From Brachionus manjavacas (Eukaryota; Rotifera; Eurotatoria; Ploima; Brachionidae), in assembly GCA_019054805.1 (NCBI GenBank), contig JAHQIY010000003.1, positions 2,604,001-2,668,000 of the forward strand: a stretch of DNA of 64,000 bases, in the 5' to 3' direction. This document shows positions 3,886 through 61,358 of the stretch, in pieces (position 1 is the stretch's first letter; each line of letters opens with the position of its first letter). Both the position numbers and the translations under genes were made by a program. The notes under the pieces were generated by a model. That model saw nothing but the letters and a program-made list of their open reading frames with translations, was not told the origin of the DNA and ran no database searches.

Positions 3886-4507
3886 CATATTCAATTCAAT
3901 TTATTACATATCTTTTCTTTTTTTAATTAATTTAATACAATCCTTTTTACTTTATTTTTATTTTATTTTATCTTACATCATTAACATTTTTTTTTAATTT
4001 AAACTTGTTTTCCAAAAAATTGAATAAAATATCTAATTTTAATTTGAAATGTTAATTATTTTCTTATTTCAATTCTTATTATTCATTTTGTGCTCTCTTT
4101 TGTTTTAAATATGATTTGAGGAGTAGTTCTAGAATTCTTCTGTTCTTCTCACTCGATTCTCTAAAAAGGTACCTTATCGATTCCATCGTTCCATCTTTGC
4201 TTCCTTTCTTGTTTAGCTTGCTTTCAAGCATTATTCTTTCACTCGCTTTCACTTAATGTTCTTCATCTTCTAGGATGGTTTTCATTTCATCTATCACGGA
4301 TATTTTTTATCAAATAGACTAGTCTAAACGTTACATTCTCTTCTTATGGCTTAAGTGAATTGTACTTTTTTGATGATTGCTAGAAATTATTTTAAAAAAG
4401 AAAAATTTAATGCAAAACTATGTTTTTATTTATTTAATTGATTAAATCGCTAAAAATATAAAGAAAGAAAGTTCTTAAAAATTGAACTAAAAATTTGAGG
4501 AAAAAAT

Positions 4508-4768: not shown

Positions 4769-4970
4769 TTTTGGAAACTCTGATTGGAAACTTTGAATTA
4801 TTTTATTTGCTGGTCTTTAAAATTTTTTCATACTTATTTATAGTTTCAGTTGAGTAACAAATGAATGAATTATTCTCAATAATTGATGTATTTAAAAATT
4901 AATTATTTTTCTTAACGTCAATAAACTTTTTTAATTGATTCATACCGATTTGATTAGTATGATATTTTTT

Positions 4971-6288: not shown

Positions 6289-6549
6289 TTAATAACTGTA
6301 TCCTCCATATAAGTTAGAGCTGTAATATCCTGGGTAATATCCATTTTTTCGGTGCTCGGCATCTCTGAATTCGTGATAGTCAATTCGTCCATTTCGGTTT
6401 CTGTCAACCAAAGAAAATTCATCCTGTGAATTTTTGTAATTGGAATATGGGTTTGAATATGGATGAGAGTTTTGATAGAATGCGCCGTATTCGTTTCGAT
6501 CAATTGAATGATCCATCCCGGAAATATTTAAAAATTTAAAATATGACAT
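6289..6549 (-). CDS. Small single EF-hand protein (86 aa), copy 2
   Basis: Same 86 residues as the copy at 4508-4768, including the DRNRNGRIDYHE calcium loop. It lies at the end of the rearranged unit 2, so the EF-hand ORF survived although the rest of the unit was replaced. It reads toward the LINE fragment. Sequence just upstream of the start codon is the shared unit junction, so any promoter would lie in the first few hundred bases of the next unit. Function unknown beyond predicted Ca2+ binding. Confidence 0.7.
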   Translation of the reverse strand: MSYFKFLNISGMDHSIDRNEYGAFYQNSHPYSNPYSNYKNSQDEFSLVDRNRNGRIDYHEFRDAEHRKNGYYPGYYSSNLYGGYSY

Positions 6550-8424
6550 TTTTGGAAACTCTGATTGGAAACTTTGAATTATTTTATATGCTGGTCTTTA
6601 AAATTTTTTCATACTTATTTATAGTTTCAGTTGAGTAACAAATGAATGAATTATTCTCAATAATTGATGTATTTAAAAATTAATTATTTTTCTTAACGTC
6701 AATAAACTTTTTTAATTGATTCATACCGATTTGATTAGTAAGATATTTTTTAACTTATTTTTATTCTTGATTTTTTTAAAATAATTAAATACAGGACATA
6801 TAAACGGTCCAAGTTATGTTTACGCCTAATTATTTTTTCCATTTATTATTTTTTAATATTTAATTACGTCAAATAGATATGAGTGAATCATTCAATTATC
6901 ACTCAACTGAAACTAAAAATGAGTAAAAAAACTAATTATGATCTGTTTTGAATTTTTATTTTTAATTTTTGATCTTTTTTTGATCTGTTAAATACCATTT
7001 TTTTTGTTTTTCTTTATGTTTACTCGATGAAAGTTAATAAAATTTAATTGCATCTTTCTTTATTTTTTAAAATAAATTAATTTTATTCCTCCAATTAATA
7101 CAAAATACATAATAACTAGATTTTAAACTTTTCTTATAAAAAATATTTTCATTTTAAGATTATCTCTCTCGTTCTTGTACTGAGAAAACATTTTGGAGTT
7201 AATAAGGCGCCGTTCGCCGTTCAATTGAGTTTAAAAGGCGGCCGCATTTAAAAATCGCCAGTCTCCTCTAAAAAAAATTCCTCTCTCATTTTTTACCTGC
7301 CGACCCAGGACTATTCAATTTTTTATTAACAGTTCTTGAGTAAAATTTTTCCCTTTATTCTTAAAAGGGGCGCTAAAAATTTTTCTCCCACTTTTCTTTC
7401 CCGAGTGAAAATTTTGTCGATTTGGTTAATGGGCTGGTACTAAGACAAATAAGTGGGAACGCTCCTAATTTTTATCTTACTTGATTCTGCTTTTCCAGAG
7501 TAATCCCATTTTTTAATTTCCGTTCCTCAGCTTAATTTTTCCTACAATTTTGTTCCTAAGGGGATACTTTGTAAAATTGGAAGTTACGCTCTAAATTTTT
7601 TTTCCTCTACTTTAAGTTACCAAACATAGCAATATTTCTTTCTTTGATTAACCTGAAATGTGAAGGGGTAATATATGATCTTTCAACGGAAATAGGAAAT
7701 GAACCCATTAAAAATTTTAGATCACTGTTAGATCAACCAACAAACATGATAAAGAATAAAAATCTTGGCGATGTATAAAATGGTCGACATAACTTAACTT
7801 AGCTTTAATTTATCTAGAGCTGTTTAAGAAACTTATTCGTGAAAGTTCATTAGTTAAGTTTTTTAAGTTATAATCCTTTAAAAATTTAACAAAACAATTT
7901 TCACCGGATTTATATTATCATCCATATTTAATTCTCCTATAATTGTGGTTCTACAATTTAAATAATAAGGTATTACACTGCTCAAGATTTTTATGAAATC
8001 AAAATCTGATAACGATTGTGGTTTTTAACAAAAAAAGGAAATCTACATTCCTTTTAACAGAGTAAAATTCAACAGATATATCTTCAAAGTCAGTGTGAAA
8101 ATGACAGCTTGTAATTTTCAGACTCTTTTTTGCAAGTACCACAAAATAAAAAAGAAAAAATGAAATATTTGTTTCAGTAAATCACAAAAAAAAATTGATT
8201 TATCATTACCCAGATTTGTATAATATAATTTTAAATACTTATCAAACCATTTTGGAGAAATTTAATTTTTAAAACAATTCGAAATAATTATATTTGGTTT
8301 TAAAAATTGACTCAAGAAAATTGATTGAAAATTGAAAATAAATAGAAAAATTTTTAAAAACACTTACCCAGCAAGTCCAGCGCTGGCAAGAAAAAAAAGA
8401 TTTTTTGAATTTAAAAGAATAGAT

Positions 8425-51636: not shown

Positions 51637-53228
51637 TCAGTTCAAAAATTTATATTTGATTTGAAAAAAACTGAACAAAATCAATAAATAATTATTGGAA
51701 ACAATTACTGATGCGTTCAAACCATCGTTGGTCCAAAATGAAGAAGGTGAAGTAGAAGTTGAAGTTGGAGTTGGAGTTGGAGTTGGATTTGAAGTAGTAG
51801 TTGAATTAATTCTTTCAATTCCATAATTCAATGTATTCTTATCCGAAGTAACAATCCTTGTTATCCAGCTCAAAAAAGAACTAACTTTCATGTATTCTCT
51901 TAGAATTTATTTTATAAATCATTTTATTTAGAAAAAATTAAATATTGTTTTAAAAAACTTGAAGCTATTTTTCCAAAAGTAAAATTTAGATATCGAAAAA
52001 GGTGCATCAAGAATTGTTTAAGGCGTTTAATTATATATTATAATAAGTATAATAATTATAATAATAATAGCTAAGGTTGGGAAAGGGAGTATCTAATTAG
52101 TGAGGATTTCACTCACTATAGAAATAAATTATTTAGAAATAAAATTTCTTTTTTGAATTGTAGCTAATCAAAAATGATGAAAAAATAATGCAACTCAGCT
52201 TTTTCTAATGCACTTGGTTCGATTAATTGCAAAATATTTTAAAAAATTTTTAAATTACCCGAATTTTCCAGGTATCGCGCATCCTTCTCCAAAAGAAGTG
52301 ACCCCAACAATAATGTATTTTTCTTCACCATCATAGCTGTCTTTAACAAACAATGGTCCTCCCGAGTCTCCTTGGCATGTGTCTTTTTCTCCTTCTTGTT
52401 CGCCTGCATACAAAATTTTTCCACTTGAACAGCAAACTAATGTTAAATTGGAATTTTGCAGAGTATTCGAAATTGGACCATCAGAAAATAATGTTCCCCA
52501 TCCAGGCGCCCATGACTCAACATTCATCGTGGTAGGATACTGGGAATCTTTTAAATATGGCAAACATGCTGGTTGTATAGAATTACTATAAGTTATTTCA
52601 TTTTTCAGTCGTATTATTCCAACATCACTTTCACTTAGCTTTCTTTTGTCATAATCGGGATGCTAAAAAATAGATGTTTAAAAAAAATAATTTTAAATAT
52701 TATAAAGAAAAAGAAAAATTTTGAAATAAACTAACTAAAGTAAATGATTTAATTGCATAGAAAGAACTATGACTATTAGTGCCATGAGCACCCAAATAAA
52801 CTCTATACATTGATTCGTAAGTTGGATAATATCTATTTGGTCTAACACTAATACTAACACTAATAACGCCAGTAGAAGATCGCAAAGTGCTGATGAAACA
52901 ATGAGCAGCAGTTAGAATGGAGACTCTATTAATCACCGATCAACCGCATCTTATTTCAACAGTTTCCGTGGAAAATAAAAAATCAAATTTATAGTTGAAT
53001 ATTAAAAGGGCCATTGATGGCCAGCTATTTGCCACTGCTTCAGTACCACCCACAATGCGAAAATTTGGACTTGTTACTCCACATTCTTAATCAAAAAAAT
53101 CATTTAAATCCTTTATGACAAAATTAAATAGATATACCATCACAAAATGGAGGTGTTCCTCCGTTTGAGCAGTTTTGGCATAAACAATGCTGAAATAAAA
53201 TGCAAATAGACAAAAAAATAAGAAACAT
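51637..53228 (-). pseudogene. Trypsin-like serine protease B (paralogue of A) with in-frame TGA
   Basis: Exons, minus strand: 53228-53138 (signal peptide MFLIFLSICILFQHCLC, QNCSNGGTPPFCD), 53085-52736, 52662-52259, 51898-51637. All junctions are GT-AG with matching phases (368 codons if the stop is read through). IVGG, LTAAHC, SDVGIIRL and KDTCQGDSGGP are all kept. However TGA at 52940-52942 replaces the second Gly codon of CGGS, before the catalytic His. The last exon has EYMKVSSFLSWIT, then a Ser/Thr/Pro-rich stalk (NPTPTPTPTSTSTSPSS) and a hydrophobic end (VIVSNNYLLILFSFFQIKYK), consistent with a stalked membrane-attached enzyme. Everything else is intact, so loss is recent, or the TGA is a sequence error or polymorphism. 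Confidence 0.88.
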
Positions 53229-53616
53229 GATTATTTAAAGTTTTAAAAAGTTTAAACTGTTAGTACTCTTTAAATATCAAACATTTTTTGAAATTTCGTA
53301 CTTATTTCATACTTATATCGTACTTATTTAAAAATAGAATTTTTGACAGAATGGTTAAGTTTTCAACATTGATCTTATGGTTTAATTTTGCTCAGTAGCT
53401 CTGTAATAAAAAGAAAATTACAAAATAACTGCGGTTGCTTTAAAGGTAATTTTTTCTCTTTTTTTAATACCACCTTTTGGTTTTTTTTTTGATTGAAATA
53501 TCTATGCCAATAATAAATATTTTTTATCAATAATTTAATTTTTTTATTTTTTAATATTTTTATTTATTATTTTTTACTAACAGGAGTTGCTTTATACTTA
53601 ATCAAGTTTATATATC

Positions 53617-53697
53617 TGCAAAAATTCTGCACGGTTGATTCGAATACTTTTTAATGGCTAGTATATTGTAGAAATTGCAGAGATTTTTGCAGAATTA
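53617..53697. repeat. CTCTGCAA hairpin repeat, copy 3
   Basis: Arms ATCTGCAAAAATTCTGCA (about 53614-53631) and GCAGAGATTTTTGCAGAAT (to about 53695), imperfect inverted repeats around GAATACTTTTTAATGG, as in the copies at 30828 and 49021. Confidence 0.7.
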
Positions 53698-54161
53698 TAT
53701 TTAATAGCAAATTAAATTTATAATAAAATTACAAAATTTGAAATATGTTGAAAATGTTTTAGCCCTCAAACAGCTAAGAGTAGAAAAATATAATTGTTTC
53801 CTAGAATAGGTCAATATTGACCCTGTCTATTTTGTAACCATTAAAACAACTTTAATTATTCAAAAGAAAGATTCAATTAGGATTCACCCTTTTAGTTTAG
53901 GGTAAATTATAGATTTTCCCCGTTTTAATTTTTCCCCCTTTAAAATTTTCCCTGTAAAATTTCCCCTTTTTTATTTTTCCCTCTTTTTATTTTCCCTGTG
54001 TAAAATTTTCCCTTGTATAATTCTTCCCCTAATAGGAGGAGTTGTTGATTAGCCAATCAAAAATTAATTAATTAAAATAAAAAAAAATAGTCATTGATAT
54101 TTTATTGATAAAAAAAAGTAATAAAAATTAATTAAAGAAAAGAGATAAAAACGGAAAGAAA

Positions 54162-55297
54162 TTACCAATTAACAATTATTGGGTTTAAAATTTTTTGTTT
54201 ATTAGATATTTCAATTGCTTCGAAATCAAGTAAATGGCCAGATTTAACAAAAAAGCTGTATAATTTCCTAATGGAATTTTGGTTGAATTTGTATTTGAAA
54301 GGATCTTGATAAATTGATAGCATTTGTGTGTAGGCGATACATAATAATCCGCAGTCATTTGAACCATCTTGTTGCTCTACATTTACCATTGAGACCTTCC
54401 CACAGTTTTTGTTTGGATATAGTAACGAAATATTTGACTAGCTTCATAAACATTGTTAATATTATTCATGCTGTCATAAACGTACCATTCTTCCTTTATT
54501 GTCTGATCCCATCCATAATATTTATCAGACGGACTTATGTTTGTCGGATTTATATTTGTTAGCAAAATCCAATGAACAATACTGACATAAACAATAAATA
54601 TTTTAGCAACTTCGGGAGACGCTTGTAAAAAAAAATTATTTCTCATACATTCGTCAATCTTTCATAATTCAATAATTGACAAATTAAGATGACCACGAAA
54701 GATCGCCCGTTTGCTTATATAGTCTAACGCTAGGTCGATATGACGTGATATTAACCACTTGTTGTCTTCAATGAAATTGGTTACTGGTTGAACTTTGACA
54801 TTCTCTTCAACATAGATTGTTTCTGGATAAATTATTGCTTCAGCGATGTTGCTTGTATTTTGACACTTAACTTTTTTGTTTGACCTTTGGGTTGGTTCTG
54901 ACATTTTCCTTTTATGATCTTTATTAATTTCTAACGATACGTCCGGCTTTTCCAAATTCACCTCACTCTTTTTTCTCGCTTTTGCTAGATTTTGAATATT
55001 GCCAAAAAAATTGAGATCTTTATATTTGTTCGATAGCTTGACAACTTTGATTTTTGATTCCATCTCTTTTATTGGTTCTTCGTTAACATCGTCTTCTTCG
55101 CTAAATTCTTCTAATTCTTCGTCAATTTCTTGCTCATACGGTGACATAACTTGATGCGTAAGATTGTCAAAATAATTCTTGAATTCAATTTGGTTTCGCT
55201 CATAGTCTTCATGTATTAGAAAAATTCTTATGTCTTTTTCTATTTCACGCTTTGCTTGTTTTGGCTTTTTCTGAGCGGATCTTGATACAAATTGCAC
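54162..55297 (-). pseudogene. ULP1/SENP-like cysteine protease in MULE 3
   Basis: A long acidic and basic linker (MSPYEQEIDEELEEFSEEDD, NLAKARKKSEV, RSNKKVKCQN) leads to a C48-type peptidase: NKWLISRHIDLALDYIS, then VHWILLTNI (catalytic His), WYVYDSMNN (catalytic Asp), EQQDGSNDCGLLCIAY (Gln of the oxyanion hole and catalytic Cys). All expected active-site residues are present. A TGA near 54662 and a one-base frame change near 54390 interrupt the frame. ULP1/SENP enzymes remove SUMO or related modifiers. Its position and strand, directly after the transposase and inside the same ends, mark it as element-encoded. Confidence 0.82.
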
Positions 55298-55319
55298 ATT
55301 TTGGCCTCTTCCCTCTTGA

Positions 55320-56861
55320 TACAGTCAATTACATCTTTAAATTTTGGATGGTACTTTGGTAAAAATTTAGTTAACTTTGAGTGGAAGCCGTCGAGATCAT
55401 TGTTTGTTCTTTTTTGTGAGCGATGGTGATTTCATATTTCTGGAGAAATTGAGCCATTGAGCCATTGCTTTTGAAAATCAACAATAAATCTTATTTGATC
55501 TTCGTCGAATTGATACATTTCATCGATAATAATGTTGATACCATCTTGTAACTTTTTGATTGGAATAAGGGCTAATGCTACGAACCGTTTGAGCCAAAAT
55601 CGCAATAGCCAGTTGCCTAAATATTTCTCCTTGAAGCCCATTGAGAAAAGTCTTCGTCTAAGAAGCTTGTGAAAAGTGAAACCAACAGCCTTTTAACTCA
55701 ACCCCTGGGAAAACAGATACTATACTTTTCATTAGACTTGACTCGAAATCACACAAAACTCTCTTTAAATTTTTAGGAAAACATAAATTTCGAATTTGTT
55801 CAAGGGCTACATCTTGAGTGAATTCAATGTAAATCGACCGGATTTTAATTTTCTTTTTACTATTTTTTTATTGGATATAAATAAAATTATAATAATTTAT
55901 TCAAAATTAAATTAGATAAATGCAATTTTGGATAAATTTTATTATAAGAAAAATGAAAAACATTTTATTTGAAAGAAAATTTATTAACAATATAAAGACA
56001 ATTTAACTTATTTTACATTTTTTTTACTTTCCTCTTTTTGAATAAAAAAATTTGATTTTTTAACAAAAATCTTTCATTCCAAATTTCAACCAATCAAAAT
56101 ATATGTAATTTTTAAAAATTCGGACGATTCACTCACTATGAAAATGTAAGTCTTGGTAATTTTTCGCTCCAAAAAAATGTACGCACATGGATACGTTTGG
56201 TTATTTAAAACCGCGTGAATAGTTAAGATTTGGTAAAACATTTTTGGAGCGTTTTTGAAAGTCCCATCTATATAATACACTTCAGCTTCGTTCAAATTTT
56301 GATGCCGGTGTCGGTAATAAATATTACAATCCGATTGATTTATTTGCTTTGATTATCGTAGCGCGAAAACGCTTGTTGTTTGTTATTGATTGTAATATAT
56401 TTAAGGCTCTCTTCAATTAGAATATCGATAGTTGTTTTTGGTTCAGCTTTAAATTTTTTCGATCGGTCCATTAGACACGTAACTCGAGCTGTTTCCTCGG
56501 ATGGAAAATATTCGGCAACTTCTCTCGGATCGTTTGCAGCTTGAAGTTGTTGAAGAATTTCTCTATATCGCTTTGAAAAATTAAAGTTTGGGTCATTTTT
56601 TGCCTCATGCTTTAAAAATTCATATTGTGCAAGGCAGTGTTTTTGAACAGGAAATAATTTTATGCATACATGTGGAATATGCTTTACGTTAGGCTTCGGT
56701 TTTCTGATGATATCATTTGAGTCGACTGTAAGGCTAACTGTTTTACAAGCTTCGCATCGCCAACGAACGCTACCATTTGTATTGTTTTCTTTTCGATGAA
56801 ATTTGTAATTTTCAAAAATCAGAAGATGTTTAGAAAGGTCTAAGTATTTTCCTCTTTCCAT
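55320..56861 (-). pseudogene. MULE 3 transposase with FLYWCH finger
   Basis: Starts MERGKYLDLSKHLLIFENYK, FHRKENN, then the zinc-finger residues WRCEACKTVSLTV and HVCIKL, a helical region (FNFSKRYREILQQLQ, LMDRSKKFKAEPK), and the MULE core: VYYIDGTFKNAPKMFYQILT (first Asp kept), a probable intron from about 56085 to 55860, KNLKRVLCDFESSLMKSIVS (second Asp kept), LKGCWFHFSQAS, then after a frame change YLGN-LLRFWLKRFVALALI and RTNNDLDGFHSKL (usual Glu position Asp). Some frame changes interrupt it; the copy is probably inactive but well preserved. Role: DDE-type cut-and-paste transposition. Confidence 0.83.
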
Positions 56862-57261
56862 TTTTAATTTTTTTATGTATTTCAGTAATGTTCATGGCAT
56901 TTTTTATTTAAGTTTAATTCATCAAAGAATTTTTTTTGTCATTTCAATCAATTATCCTTTAGGAATTATGCCCGAACATTTTTATTTAGATCAATTATTA
57001 GGCGTTCTTTAAGGTAACGGAATTGGAGTATTAGAAAGATAAAAGATTTACTCAAAATTTAATTTTCTATTATTAATCTGCTTATTAATTCAATTAACTT
57101 TTGATTAGCTAAAATAAAAAAAAAAAAACGGGGAAAAATTTACTCAGGGAATTTTAAACGGAGAGAAATTTTTATAGGGGAAAATTTATATAGGGAATTT
57201 ATTAAACGTGGAAAATATTAAGGGGGAAAAATTTAACGGGAAAAATCTATACAGAATCGAT

Positions 57262-58070
57262 CTCAAAGACAGAGCAGTAAAAACTTCGGAAAAACCGAGA
57301 GAAATTATTACCGATATGTTACTTAAAATACCTCCAAATGTTGCTTCTTAATTGCCTACAATTCAAAATCTATCACAAGTAATAAATAGAGAAGGAAGAA
57401 AAATTAACCCTTTTGGGAAAAATAAGAAGTCATTAAATAGATTTGGTAATAGTTGACGAATTCAGGAAAATAATTTTTATTCTTTGATTCTCAGAATGAA
57501 AATCCTGAAAGACTTATTATTCTCTCAACTGATGAAAATATTGCTTTGCTCAGCTATGAGCCATGCTGGTTCATTGATGGAACTTTTGAGATCAGTCCTG
57601 AGGCTTTCAAACAAGTTTTCACTATAAACATTATAAAAAACAATCTAAATATTCCATTAGTTTATGCTTTTCTTGTAAATAAACAAGAGAGAACCTATAC
57701 TCGCTTTTTTAATGTGAAATGCAAAGACCTAAAAAAAAAAGCAACACATGTAATTTGTGCCACAAATAACGGGTTTTTTAAAAAGCTTTAATAAACTCAG
57801 TGCTCAAATCTTTTCAAGATATTTTAATCAATGGTTGCTTTTTTCATTTAAATTCCAATTTGTGGTAATTTGTTCAGAAAAATAATTTAAAACAACTTTA
57901 TTCAAAAAATGTTGAGTTTAACAAAATTTTTTATTATTTAAAAGTCTTGCCATTCATTCCTATTAAGGACACTATTAATGCATTTAACTACATTAAAGAA
58001 ATATGTCCTAGAGAGGGTAAGCCATTTATTAAACAACATACACAATGTACTGTTATGACTAAAACTTAAC
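57262..58070 (+). pseudogene. MULE 4 transposase fragment
   Basis: Plus strand: LKDRAVKTSEKPREIITDML (the post-FLYWCH helix block), LPTIQNLSQVINREGRK, then CWFIDGTFEISPEAFKQVFT with the first catalytic Asp, IPLVYAFLVNKQERTYTRFF, GCFFHLNSNLW and FIPIKDTINAFNYIKE. Frame changes and stops throughout. The N-terminal finger is absent where MULE 3 abuts, suggesting MULE 3 may have inserted into it. Confidence 0.75.
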
Positions 58071-58079
58071 CGTTTATAT

Positions 58080-59130
58080 TGCAAAAACCGAACGTTAAAA
58101 GATCTCGGAGTACCAATCTAAAACGACCTTGAGTGCTAAAGTAAACAAAGCACCTTCAAAAGCAAATAGTTTATTGGGTCTCCCTAAAAGGACATTCGTT
58201 TTCAGAGACGCTAAACTCTGGAAAAAACTTTATGGGCTCTGCAGTATTTCATAATATATTAATAGGGCATAAAAATAGAAGACTTAAAGCTTACATATTA
58301 AACTCTGTACCAAATACAAAAAGTATCAATAGCAGAATCTCTAATAAGTTTTTCGAAAAAAGTAGAATACTTAAAACTTACAACTATTTTTTGAAATACG
58401 ATTCATAATCAAATAAAGTCTTGAGCAAAAAAAAATATTTCTCCAACCTTAAAATCATTTATCTACAAAACATATTTTTTATCCAAATTCACATTTGGAT
58501 TGGGTATTACAACTCTAAAAGAAGTGACAAAAAAGTTATTGAACACAACCCAGAACAATTTAATTAGACTAATGTTTGGTATTATTTATATAGCTGTCAT
58601 ATGTCCAGCATCCTCAAAGTGTTAAAAATATTTAATATCGAACAGCTATACTTTTTTTCCAAACTATCTTTTATTAGTAGCTTGCAGTATAACCCATTAG
58701 CTTCTTATATTTTTGAATCAATTTGCATAGTTACTCCCCTCTTAAGAATGCCAAAAACAAATCACTTAAGCATGACATAGCCATCCTTGAAAAATATTTT
58801 AATAAAGATATAATGTTTATAAAAAATAATTTTAATCAACTAAAATTGGTTCTTAAAATGGAACTGGAATTTAATGACTCAATAAAGCTATGCTAAGAAA
58901 ATTTTAGGTTCAAGGAATATAAAACCTAATAAAGTCTTTTTAGTAATGGTCTCATTATTCTTGGACTCGATCAATCGATATCTATATACTAGACTATCAT
59001 TTTTTCTTATTATTAAATTGTATTTTTTCTAATTTATAAACCTTTTATTGCATAATATTTAAATTTTACTTCTACAAAATGGAGGTTAATTGCTAATCAA
59101 TAAATAAATAAATAATCAAATAAATAAATG
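58080..59130 (+). mobile_element. Decayed LINE (second family), 3' part
   Basis: Reads RTLKDLGVPI, SKANSLLGLPKRTFVFRDAK, LWKKLY, the RT thumb of CR1/jockey-type LINEs (DLGV, KANxxLGxxKRxF, LYK). Further 3' there are only scraps. The end at about 59075-59130 reads ACAAAATGGAGGTTAATTGC followed by AATAAATAAATAAATAA, a 3' terminus different from the CTGAAGGAGC family. Confidence 0.65.
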
Positions 59131-59171
59131 TGAATGATCATCTGAGCGAAGAATATAAAATAACTGCAGGT
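59131..59171 (+). mobile_element. 41-bp LINE RT scrap joining two elements
   Basis: Reads VNDHLSEEYKITAG, the segment just before GVPQGS in the main LINE family, on the plus strand. It lies between the tail of one LINE and the opposite-strand LINE at 59172. Confidence 0.6.
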
Positions 59172-60640
59172 GAGTTTTTTAACATTAGATTATGAATTTG
59201 GTCAGGTCCTGATGCCGCTTCATTTTTCAATCTTTTTAGAGCCATAATTAATTCATTTAAGCAAATTGGATCATTAAAATTAGACTGATCATAATTTTTA
59301 GAGAATTCAGAGTGAGAATTAAGTATTTCGAAATCTTTATCACGATCTATTAAATCAGAATTAGGACTAAATATTGAAGATTGGAGTTCTCTAAAGCATT
59401 TTCCCTTTTCTTCATTAGTTTTGAATTCCTTGTCATTTAAAAACAAATTTCGGATTAAATTTGATCCTTTTTTTGATCTAAATTTATTTATTTTTTTCCA
59501 GAATGGTCTACTTGTCAGTGGGTTTTTTCCCATTTTCTCAATAAAATCAAACCAATTTTGATTCCAGAATTTTTTTAAAGAGGCCTTTAACTCGAATGTA
59601 AGTTGATTAAATTTTTTCTTGAGATTTTGACAGCGAGTTTTTTGAAAGTTTCTTCTCACTTTCTTGCGTTCTTTTATCAGAATAACAATGTTCGGGGGAA
59701 GACTGGTTTTGTAGATTTTCTGCGAATGATAAGGAATGCTTTTATGTGAAGTAGAAATAATTTTTTCTGTAATTTTATCACTTAGTTGATCTATTGTGAG
59801 GGAACTTTCAGTGATTTTTACTAATTGAGAATTTAAAATCTCGCTGAATAATTGCCAGTTTGCTTTCTTATAGTTAAACTTTTTAGCTGCTGATTTATTT
59901 TCTAATTGATAGCCCATAGAAATCGATGCTTCGATTGGGAAATGGTCAGTATTTAGGACACAAAAGTCGGTAATTTTGTCAATTAATGAAGATGAAACTA
60001 AGAAAAGATCAAGAATTTCAAAGTAATTTCTATTAAAAATATTGAAAGTAGGACGCTTATCATTGATTACTGAGAAGTCTAACTCATTGATTATTCTTTC
60101 CAACATTATGCCGTTTTCATTTTCCCTTACGCAGCCTATTTGCTTTGTTCTGGCGTTAAGATCACCACCTAAAATGTAGTTTCTACATTTTTTATTAACA
60201 GTTTTAAAAAACTCAAAGTTCAGAAGCATATTGGGTGGATTTTAAAGACTGAATATAAACAATTCATTATTCTTTCCTTAGTTCATTTTTATACAAAGGA
60301 GTTCGGAATTGAATTCCTCATAAGAGAAATCTTGTATAAATTCAATTCCTTCTTTAATTAAAATTGCTACTCCTTCTCCATACTTGTTGCGTGGTTTTGT
60401 TATGAATTGATAATTGTGAAAATCAAGATAAATATTTGCCCCACTTAAATCTATCCTTAGTTCATTGAGCAAAACAATGTCGGGACATTTTTGAGCTAAA
60501 AAATTGGCTAAGAGATGAACCCTACTAGGTAAATGAAGACAATTCCAGTGTGTAATTACTAACCTTGTTTTATTAAGAGGTTTTGTTCTTAAAGTTGATT
60601 TATTTATCTTCTTGTTCATTCTAAATTTTCTTCAATGCTG
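59172..60640 (-). mobile_element. LINE ORF2 5' part: endonuclease and linker
   Basis: Minus strand from ATG at 60619: TRLVITHWNCLHLPSRVHLL, CPDIVLLNELRIDLSGANIY, NKYGEGVAILIKEG, then NPPNMLLNFEFF, NYILGGDLNARTKQIGC (catalytic DLNA), LDLFLVSSSLI and LNTDHFPIEASI (catalytic Asp-His). These are blocks of an exonuclease-endonuclease-phosphatase domain. Then the linker (KERKKVRRNFQKTRCQNL, KNPLTSRPFWKKINKFRSKK) and the first RT part (AASGPDQIHNLMLKN), where it stops. Two nonsense codons lie between 60278 and 60229; 59138-60229 is otherwise open for 363 codons. The endonuclease would nick target DNA for target-primed reverse transcription. Confidence 0.9.
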
Positions 60641-60649
60641 TTTTGACTG

Positions 60650-60934
60650 GCAGTTTGCTGACCAATTACCGCATGTTAAAATTTAATTAAATCTTTTTCT
60701 CACAGAAACAATTAAATTTATCAATTTTTTAAGTAATTAAATGTTAAATTTTTTTAATAAAAAATGATTATTAGACCAATATATAGTAAAAAATTTAATT
60801 AATAAAGTTTTTTCGTTCAATTTGAATTTTATCTCAACATTACAACCTTTTAAAAAACATTTTTTCAGACATTTTTTCAGATTTCAATTTTTTTTCATAA
60901 AAAAAACGTTGCAAAATTTAGGGTAAACAGGCAC
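60650..60934. other. Non-coding AT-rich interval
   Basis: Nothing recognised between the LINE start and the inverted repeat. Confidence 0.45.
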
Positions 60935-61358
60935 AAGCCACTTGAACGTAGGAGACTAAAAGTAATTTTACAATTATTTAGTAATCCTTAATTTATAAAT
61001 TAATATATTTTATTGTATCGATATATGGATACATTTTATTTTCAATTTAGAATTATTTGTTTTTACAAAGCGAAATTTATAATCATTTAAAAGAAACGTT
61101 AAATGACTAAAAAATAGAATAATAATATAATTGATAGAATTTTGATCAATTTAAAAAAAAAAATTATAAAATATCAACTGAAACAACAATGTGTTTTTAA
61201 TAATGAATTAACAAAAAATTCAGAAAAAACAAAACTTCTATTTAAATAAAATTAATATTACAGTTGATTAATTATTAAATTAATAATTAAAAATTAAAAC
61301 TCATAACAATCCTAAGTATTAGAAGAGTTGATTAGCATTCATTTTAGCTAAAGTTTAA
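60935..61358 (+). repeat. Left arm of 424-bp inverted repeat
   Basis: AAGCCACTTGAACGTAGGAG… is the reverse complement of the last bases of the window; the match runs 424 bp to GTTTAA at 61358 with very few mismatches, mainly near the inner edge. The pairing is limited by the window end, so the arm may extend left of 60935 if the right arm continues past 64000. Confidence 0.95.

Follow-up and report, generated by a model that had tools for sequence, protein, structure and literature searches.

The 64-kb stretch of DNA analysed here (the window: contig 3, positions 2604001-2668000 of the 114.17-Mb, 61-contig assembly of the rotifer Brachionus manjavacas, with a GC content of 23-31% in 2-kb steps) contains, at 53914-57254, what is likely a dead cut-and-paste Mutator-like element (MULE), whose single polypeptide would combine, from N- to C-terminus, a FLYWCH-like zinc finger, a DDE transposase of the MULE type and a C48 protease acting at the element's own DNA. 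An earlier reading of this sequence (the original prediction) had proposed a MULE carrying its own ULP1-type protease, and relatives in the same genome support this proposal. The original prediction had described two separate genes; collinearity with an intact relative indicates instead that they form a single fused one.

A transposase and a protease in one reading frame

The intact relative lies on contig 8 (locus L057), where one stop-free frame of 802 codons encodes 799 amino acids (aa) from the first Met (protein P0001). A MULE domain (PF10551) at aa 182-278 scores 50.1 bits (cut-off 27.6), and the last 240 aa, once excised, match Peptidase_C48 with 23.2 bits (cut-off 20.7). All eight open reading frame (ORF) pieces of the window element are collinear with P0001 (E-values of 6e-14 to 6e-5 against this single-sequence target, filters off), and because they line up with a stop-free ORF containing both domains, we conclude from the sequence that the element carries one fused transposase-protease gene and not two. 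The eight pieces also align in order to those of a locus on contig 18 (L046), of which four of the seven (starting at 4864, 5137, 5431 and 5981) are themselves collinear with P0001. The fusion joint falls within a 220-aa ORF that aligns in one frame to both the transposase tail (50%) and the protease start (55%) of L046, and the N-terminal piece aligns at 27% to P0001 aa 7-158 and at 42.5% to L046 4315-4752.

The pieces, all on the minus strand, are flanked by two mutually inverted arrays with units spaced ~15-16 bp, TTTTCCC-like at 53914-54028 and its reverse complement at 57130-57245 (Table 1). Counted over the 64-kb window with at most one mismatch and overlapping matches included, these arrays are the densest TTTTCCC/GGGAAAA clusters (13 and 11 matches per 150 bp; the next best elsewhere have 7 and 5), in agreement with the TTTTCCC-rich inverted ends of the original prediction. 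Its FLYWCH/MULE transposase with the Asp residues of DGTF and CDFE is also present, with Pfam scores under cut-off, as is, on the same strand, its C48-type protease, whose His, Asp, Gln and Cys motifs are split over two frames. The motifs IDGTF, CDFE, VHWILL, VYDS and EQQDGSNDCG were recognised by eye, and the residues of the last three are those that we take to be catalytic in C48 proteases. Compared with NN.LEG.H of the relatives, RTNNDLDGFH probably contains the third catalytic acid, an Asp in the window copy.

Table 1. Features of the element and of the repeat inserted into it (window positions)
Feature	Position	Strand	Remarks
Left terminal array, TTTTCCC-like units (gene 3' end)	53914..54040		Densest TTTTCCC cluster in the window
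C48-type protease, Gln and Cys (EQQDGSNDCG)	54162..54437	-	34% to P0001 aa 725-786; 47.5% to L046, 51% to L061, 47% to L062
C48-type protease, His (VHWILL) and Asp (VYDS)	54383..54661	-	34% to P0001 aa 670-698; 43-45% to L046 pieces
220-aa ORF: transposase tail, charged linker and protease start (fusion joint)	54662..55324	-	P0001 aa 412-518 (24%)
Transposase with RTNNDLDGFH	55240..55431	-	30% to P0001 aa 366-426
Transposase catalytic region, continued	55432..55692	-	35% to P0001 aa 274-351
DDE domain, second Asp (CDFE) and GCWFHF	55658..55867	-	MULE PF10551 22.9 bits, cut-off 27.6; 38% to P0001 aa 220-279
Unrelated ~331-bp repeat (CATAGTGAGTG...CACTCAAGATG)	55810..56140		Inserted into the DDE domain, where it separates the two Asp motifs
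DDE domain, first Asp (YYIDGTF)	56086..56352	-	MULE PF10551 23.5 bits, cut-off 27.6; 42% to P0001 aa 182-236
N-terminal piece, FLYWCH-like zinc finger (RWRCEACK...)	56340..56891	-	Pfam FLYWCH E=0.001, 19.6 bits, cut-off 23.6
Right terminal array, GGGAAAA-like inverted units (gene 5' end)	57119..57254		57119-57183 (65 nt) 71% complementary to 53914-53978

As read, the window copy is dead and cannot make the protein: in-frame stops or changes of frame separate its ORF pieces. The His/Asp protease piece shares the frame of the preceding ORF with one stop between them, and the Gln/Cys piece is frame-shifted relative to it. The first-Asp piece ends by reading into the inserted repeat, and the first ~19 codons of the second-Asp piece lie inside it, as do the first dozen residues aligned to P0001. 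This repeat, with CATAGTGAGTGAATC / ATTCACTCAAGATG ends, is matched by at least 41 further rows across the genome, many of them 95-99% identical; 41 of the 43 match rows to element DNA, a lower bound, fall only within it, and its junctions also occur at 11 or more other loci.

A near-identical second copy of the element at contig 3, 2672046, 11 kb away, was rejected as proof of transposition, because it belongs to a segmental duplication, inverted and at least 8.3 kb long (99.6%), and is not an independent insertion. The arms of this duplication, window 53037-61358 and contig 3 2667577-2675900, are separated by ~2.2 kb between their inner ends and may reflect either a genuine palindrome or a fold-back made in assembly. 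Further large inverted and direct duplications (~99.4%) were observed on contig 18 at 1103000-1124900 (L047 and L048), and this assembly may contain many large palindromes. The element is adjoined by a second, different MULE-like fragment (FIDGTFEISPEAF) at 57474-57791 (+) and 57869-58069 (+), the former with a Pfam MULE score of 17.5 bits, under cut-off, and the latter with no MULE match, while frames named by eye as a trypsin-like serine protease (AAHC.., CQGDSGGPLF) lie beside it at 52255-52939 (-).

Related insertions in the same genome

The original prediction was to be given up if no other copy linked the two genes, and a genome-wide search for both between the same ends had been suggested; four other sites show the same link (L046, L057, L058 and L059), three of them bounded by target site duplications (TSDs). 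These three, L057 and L058 on contig 8 and L059 on contig 3, are copies, 98.6-99.1% identical, of an element of ~2.93 kb, with the reading frames broken in L058 and L059. In each copy homology stops at a perfect 8-bp direct repeat that differs from those of the other two (AAATATAG, TCGCCTAC and ATGGAAAA), the last of which appears 9 bp long, its following base being identical to the one with which the element begins. In 200000 random draws, pairs of 8-mers from the window agreed 32 times. Shared ends together with different 8-bp TSDs around both domains thus point to three independent insertions.

Locus L046 represents a divergent second family with an identical domain order between TTCCC arrays. 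Its inverted ends (3966-4063 and 6464-6561; 74.5%) enclose, on one strand, a MULE piece of 34.3 bits, above the PF10551 cut-off, and the protease pieces. Two protease copies on the same contig, at 1106675 and 1118946, were considered as independent elements and rejected, as they duplicate the 3' part of L046 at ~99.4% identity.

Membership in the Mutator superfamily is supported by the PF10551 scores of P0001 and L046 and by the TSDs, which are 8 bp in all three L057-family copies, for an expected length in MULEs of 8-11 bp (PMC6446971). The 20-bp ends of the L057 family match at 16 of 20 positions (by eye), and the window element and L046 have inverted arrays of short units. A FLYWCH match was obtained, under cut-off, with the window piece; Pfam gave none in the N-termini of P0001, L046, L049 and L050.

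Shortened and incomplete relatives also exist. One deletion derivative (contig 8, 3020632) keeps P0001 aa 1-134 and 662-771, and another (L071, contig 4, 3154650-3155450, match at 3154800) keeps aa 1-38 and 674-799; in the latter a single open frame of 170 aa spans both parts, the second of which belongs to the protease, and a short stretch is duplicated where they meet. Arrays of GGGAA lie beyond the protease pieces of L061 and L062, the latter with TTCCC on the other side as well. A transposon-type protease piece on contig 31 (L064, 1778-2218) scores 66.6 bits to the L057 protease, with no recognised transposase in the fetched stretch, and L060 contains a Pax-type paired-plus-homeodomain frame (named by eye), which marks the genome as that of an animal. 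When relatives were sought in viral contigs, one stretch fit a pattern and none was confirmed.

Conservation and possible role of the protease

The catalytic residues His, Asp, Gln and Cys occur in this order both in the window (VHWILL / VYDS / EQQDGSNDCG) and in P0001 (NHWIVL / IYDS / KQKGNKDCG). Asp, Gln and Cys are kept in the window copy, L046, L057, L061 and L062, and His, where it could be read, in the window copy, L046, L057 and L064, in protease pieces that are only ~22-50% identical. Selection was assessed by simple counting in eight codon comparisons of 63-129 codons. The ratio of nonsynonymous to synonymous substitutions (dN/dS) of the protease was 0.20 for L046-L061 (dS 1.7) and 0.21 for L046-L062 (dS 2.1), and in the pairs with saturated dS the corresponding ratio of proportions (pN/pS) was 0.40, 0.30, 0.42 and 0.60 for the protease and 0.24 for the transposase. 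These values suggest that the protease is under mostly purifying selection between subfamilies.

A close match of the ULP1 region to a host gene, which would have counted against the original prediction, was not found among the five host-type ULPs compared (5 of the 54 C48 matches in the genome, with host status assumed from high C48 scores). Scores among the five range from 48.5 to 93.6 bits, and those between the five and eight transposon-type protease pieces do not exceed 35.4 bits, with 7 of the 40 between-group pairs not found. The transposon-type pieces score 26.6-95.1 bits among themselves (2 of 28 pairs not found), the lowest values, which come from short pieces, overlapping 35.4. The longest piece, the L057 protease, does not exceed 30.8 bits with the host-type ULPs and reaches up to 66.6 with other transposon-type pieces. 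Since the host-type ULPs score lower with the transposon-type pieces than among themselves, a recent capture of a host ULP is unlikely and, within the limits of this sample, we rejected it. Distinctness from the five host-type ULPs, together with the mostly purifying selection, leads us to propose that the protease probably serves the transposon.

The anatomy, the fusion, the other insertions of this kind, the 8-bp TSDs of the L057 family and the mostly purifying selection between subfamilies are read directly from the data; the steps that would connect them are conditional. The zinc finger and the transposase would bind the repeated units at the element ends, and the bound transposase would bring the fused protease to the element's own DNA. 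There the protease could strip a ubiquitin-like modifier from the transposase, from repair factors or from silencing factors, and the removal of the modifier may help transposition or expression.

Several observations weigh against the reading as a MULE with a fused, functional C48 protease. The profile search suggested with the original prediction, made with Pfam on seven of the eight window pieces (all but 55240..55431), gave two matches to MULE and a single one to FLYWCH, each under its curated cut-off, and no Peptidase_C48 match at E<=1; support for the domains comes from relatives in the same genome, and C48 was matched only there. Even in the whole 799-aa P0001, C48 was not listed at E<=0.1, and the domain was matched above cut-off only by the last 240 aa taken separately and by the frame of L059 (22.3 bits, cut-off 20.7); L046 (14.4 bits) and L062 (14.6 bits) stayed under cut-off and L061 and L064 gave no C48 Pfam match. 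Between 53886-53920 and 57241-57280, the window copy has no TSD candidate (7-10 bp, at most one mismatch), and L046 has no convincing one, only T-rich candidates. With transposase recognition at E<=0.001 and within the fetched stretches, six loci have transposase pieces without a protease (L049, L050, L054, L055, L056 and L060) and five have protease pieces without a recognised transposase (L051, L061, L062, L063 and L064). The dS values of the two favourable protease pairs are near saturation, dS is saturated in five of the eight comparisons, and one comparison, L061 with L063, gave a dN/dS of 1.01, which is read as decay of dead copies. Matches to solved structures are also weak, with a best profile value of 0.032 (SseL); the single-sequence search reached 0.12 with SENP5, a value shared by a chain of the unrelated SETD1A.

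Two more specific roles are sub-cases of the preferred explanation. In the first, which we rate at slightly under an even chance, the protease targets the transposase or DNA-repair factors during transposition and not silencing, close to what has been proposed for Ulp1 in Ginger1 and Mutator elements; Ulp1 and OTU domains may, according to that proposal, activate repair factors after or during transposition (PMC2836005), and the fusion would place the protease in the transposition complex, but this role is not distinguishable here from a silencing role. In the second, which seems doubtful, a selectively maintained protease would strip SUMO from silencing complexes on the element and so undo SUMO-dependent silencing in cis, in line with the original prediction, which had suggested that such a protease might counter this kind of silencing. 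In the host genome, 18 matches to the SUMO/ubiquitin fold (PF11976), six of them in tandem in one frame that is probably polyubiquitin, and Argonaute/Piwi-fold matches (PF02171) in 20 stretches indicate that components for silencing of the SUMO and PIWI-interacting RNA (piRNA) type exist. In Drosophila, the piRNA effector Panx is described as requiring SUMO for transposon silencing (PMC13195609). The substrates of the weakly matching structures are mixed, namely SUMO for SENP5, NEDD8 for SENP8 and ubiquitin for SseL, and therefore do not single out SUMO itself.

Outside the preferred explanation, the protease might be a passenger with no role, the element having picked up a fragment of a gene in the manner of Pack-MULEs. 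Plant MULEs are reported to carry gene fragments often (PMC6431247, PMC2528002), and in our data most copies are decayed, several lack one half and deletion derivatives exist. We nevertheless consider a passenger quite unlikely, given the in-frame fusion within an intact 799-aa ORF, the catalytic residues kept at such low identity and the dN/dS of ~0.2 in two protease pairs, with pN/pS of 0.30-0.60 in the four saturated ones; the presence of transposase and protease in one polypeptide itself argues against passive gene capture. One long intact ORF among decayed copies could also be expected of a domesticated host gene, which is very improbable here as three nearly identical copies with different TSDs and preserved ends indicate recent mobility. 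Finally, the window is rich in repeats, one of them inside the element and the MULE-like piece at 57474-57791 next to it, yet a chance adjacency of two unrelated elements or genes, with the ends belonging to only one, is refuted by the single open frame of L057 and by TSDs enclosing both domains in three copies, with the same order and strand at all four further sites, and retains hardly any probability.

Comparison with known systems

ULP1 proteases are reported to recur in unrelated DNA transposons, including Mutator, Ginger1 and CACTA elements (PMC2836005, PMC2528002). The original prediction took the present arrangement to be undescribed in animals; PMC2836005, however, names Ulp1 domains in Mutator transposons of hydra and lancelet, next to those of Arabidopsis, maize, rice and melon, and in Ginger1. 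The hydra and lancelet MuDR elements (Repbase Reports, via PMC2836005) are likewise animal members of the Mutator superfamily with Ulp1, and the legend of Figure 1 in that paper, which places Ulp1 and PHD domains in 'Ginger1 TPases, Mutator TPases', suggests that the fusion is probably of the same kind. They differ in host, and the likeness to the rotifer element is one of description alone. Ginger1 shares a C-terminal Ulp1 fused to the DDE transposase of an animal DNA transposon, but its transposase is Gypsy-integrase-like (PMC2836005) and that of the rotifer element a MULE (PF10551). By its entry in Table 1 of PMC6446971 alone ('Ovarian Tumour Gene'), the cnidarian MuDR-6_HM also combines an animal MULE with a ubiquitin-type protease gene, of the OTU family and not C48. 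Phantom and other animal MULE groups share the MULE transposase, in some cases FLYWCH, and TSDs of 8-10 bp (PMC6446971); none of the terms ulp, C48, protease and peptidase appears in the main text of that paper.

Among plant elements, the KAONASHI (KI) MULEs share the combination of a MULE with a ULP-type protease, but are described as lacking terminal inverted repeats and as carrying the ULP in reverse orientation to mudrA (PMC2528002), in contrast to the inverted ends and the same-strand, in-frame fusion of the rotifer element. ULP-MULEs are also described from grapevine, melon and rice, and in some of them a ULP1-like region follows the transposase and points the same way, as here; this holds for several grapevine families, and PMC2528002 classes these plant elements under transduplicated cellular gene fragments. 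Animal Mutator transposons bearing Ulp1 are thus already described in these sources, and the value of the present one lies in its stop-free, recently mobile, single-ORF form. We believe that such a compact element of ~2.93 kb, with a single ORF of 799 aa, near-identical copies and clean TSDs, will be useful in that the reason for the repeated occurrence of ULP1 proteases among unrelated DNA transposons can be tested in it by one point mutation.

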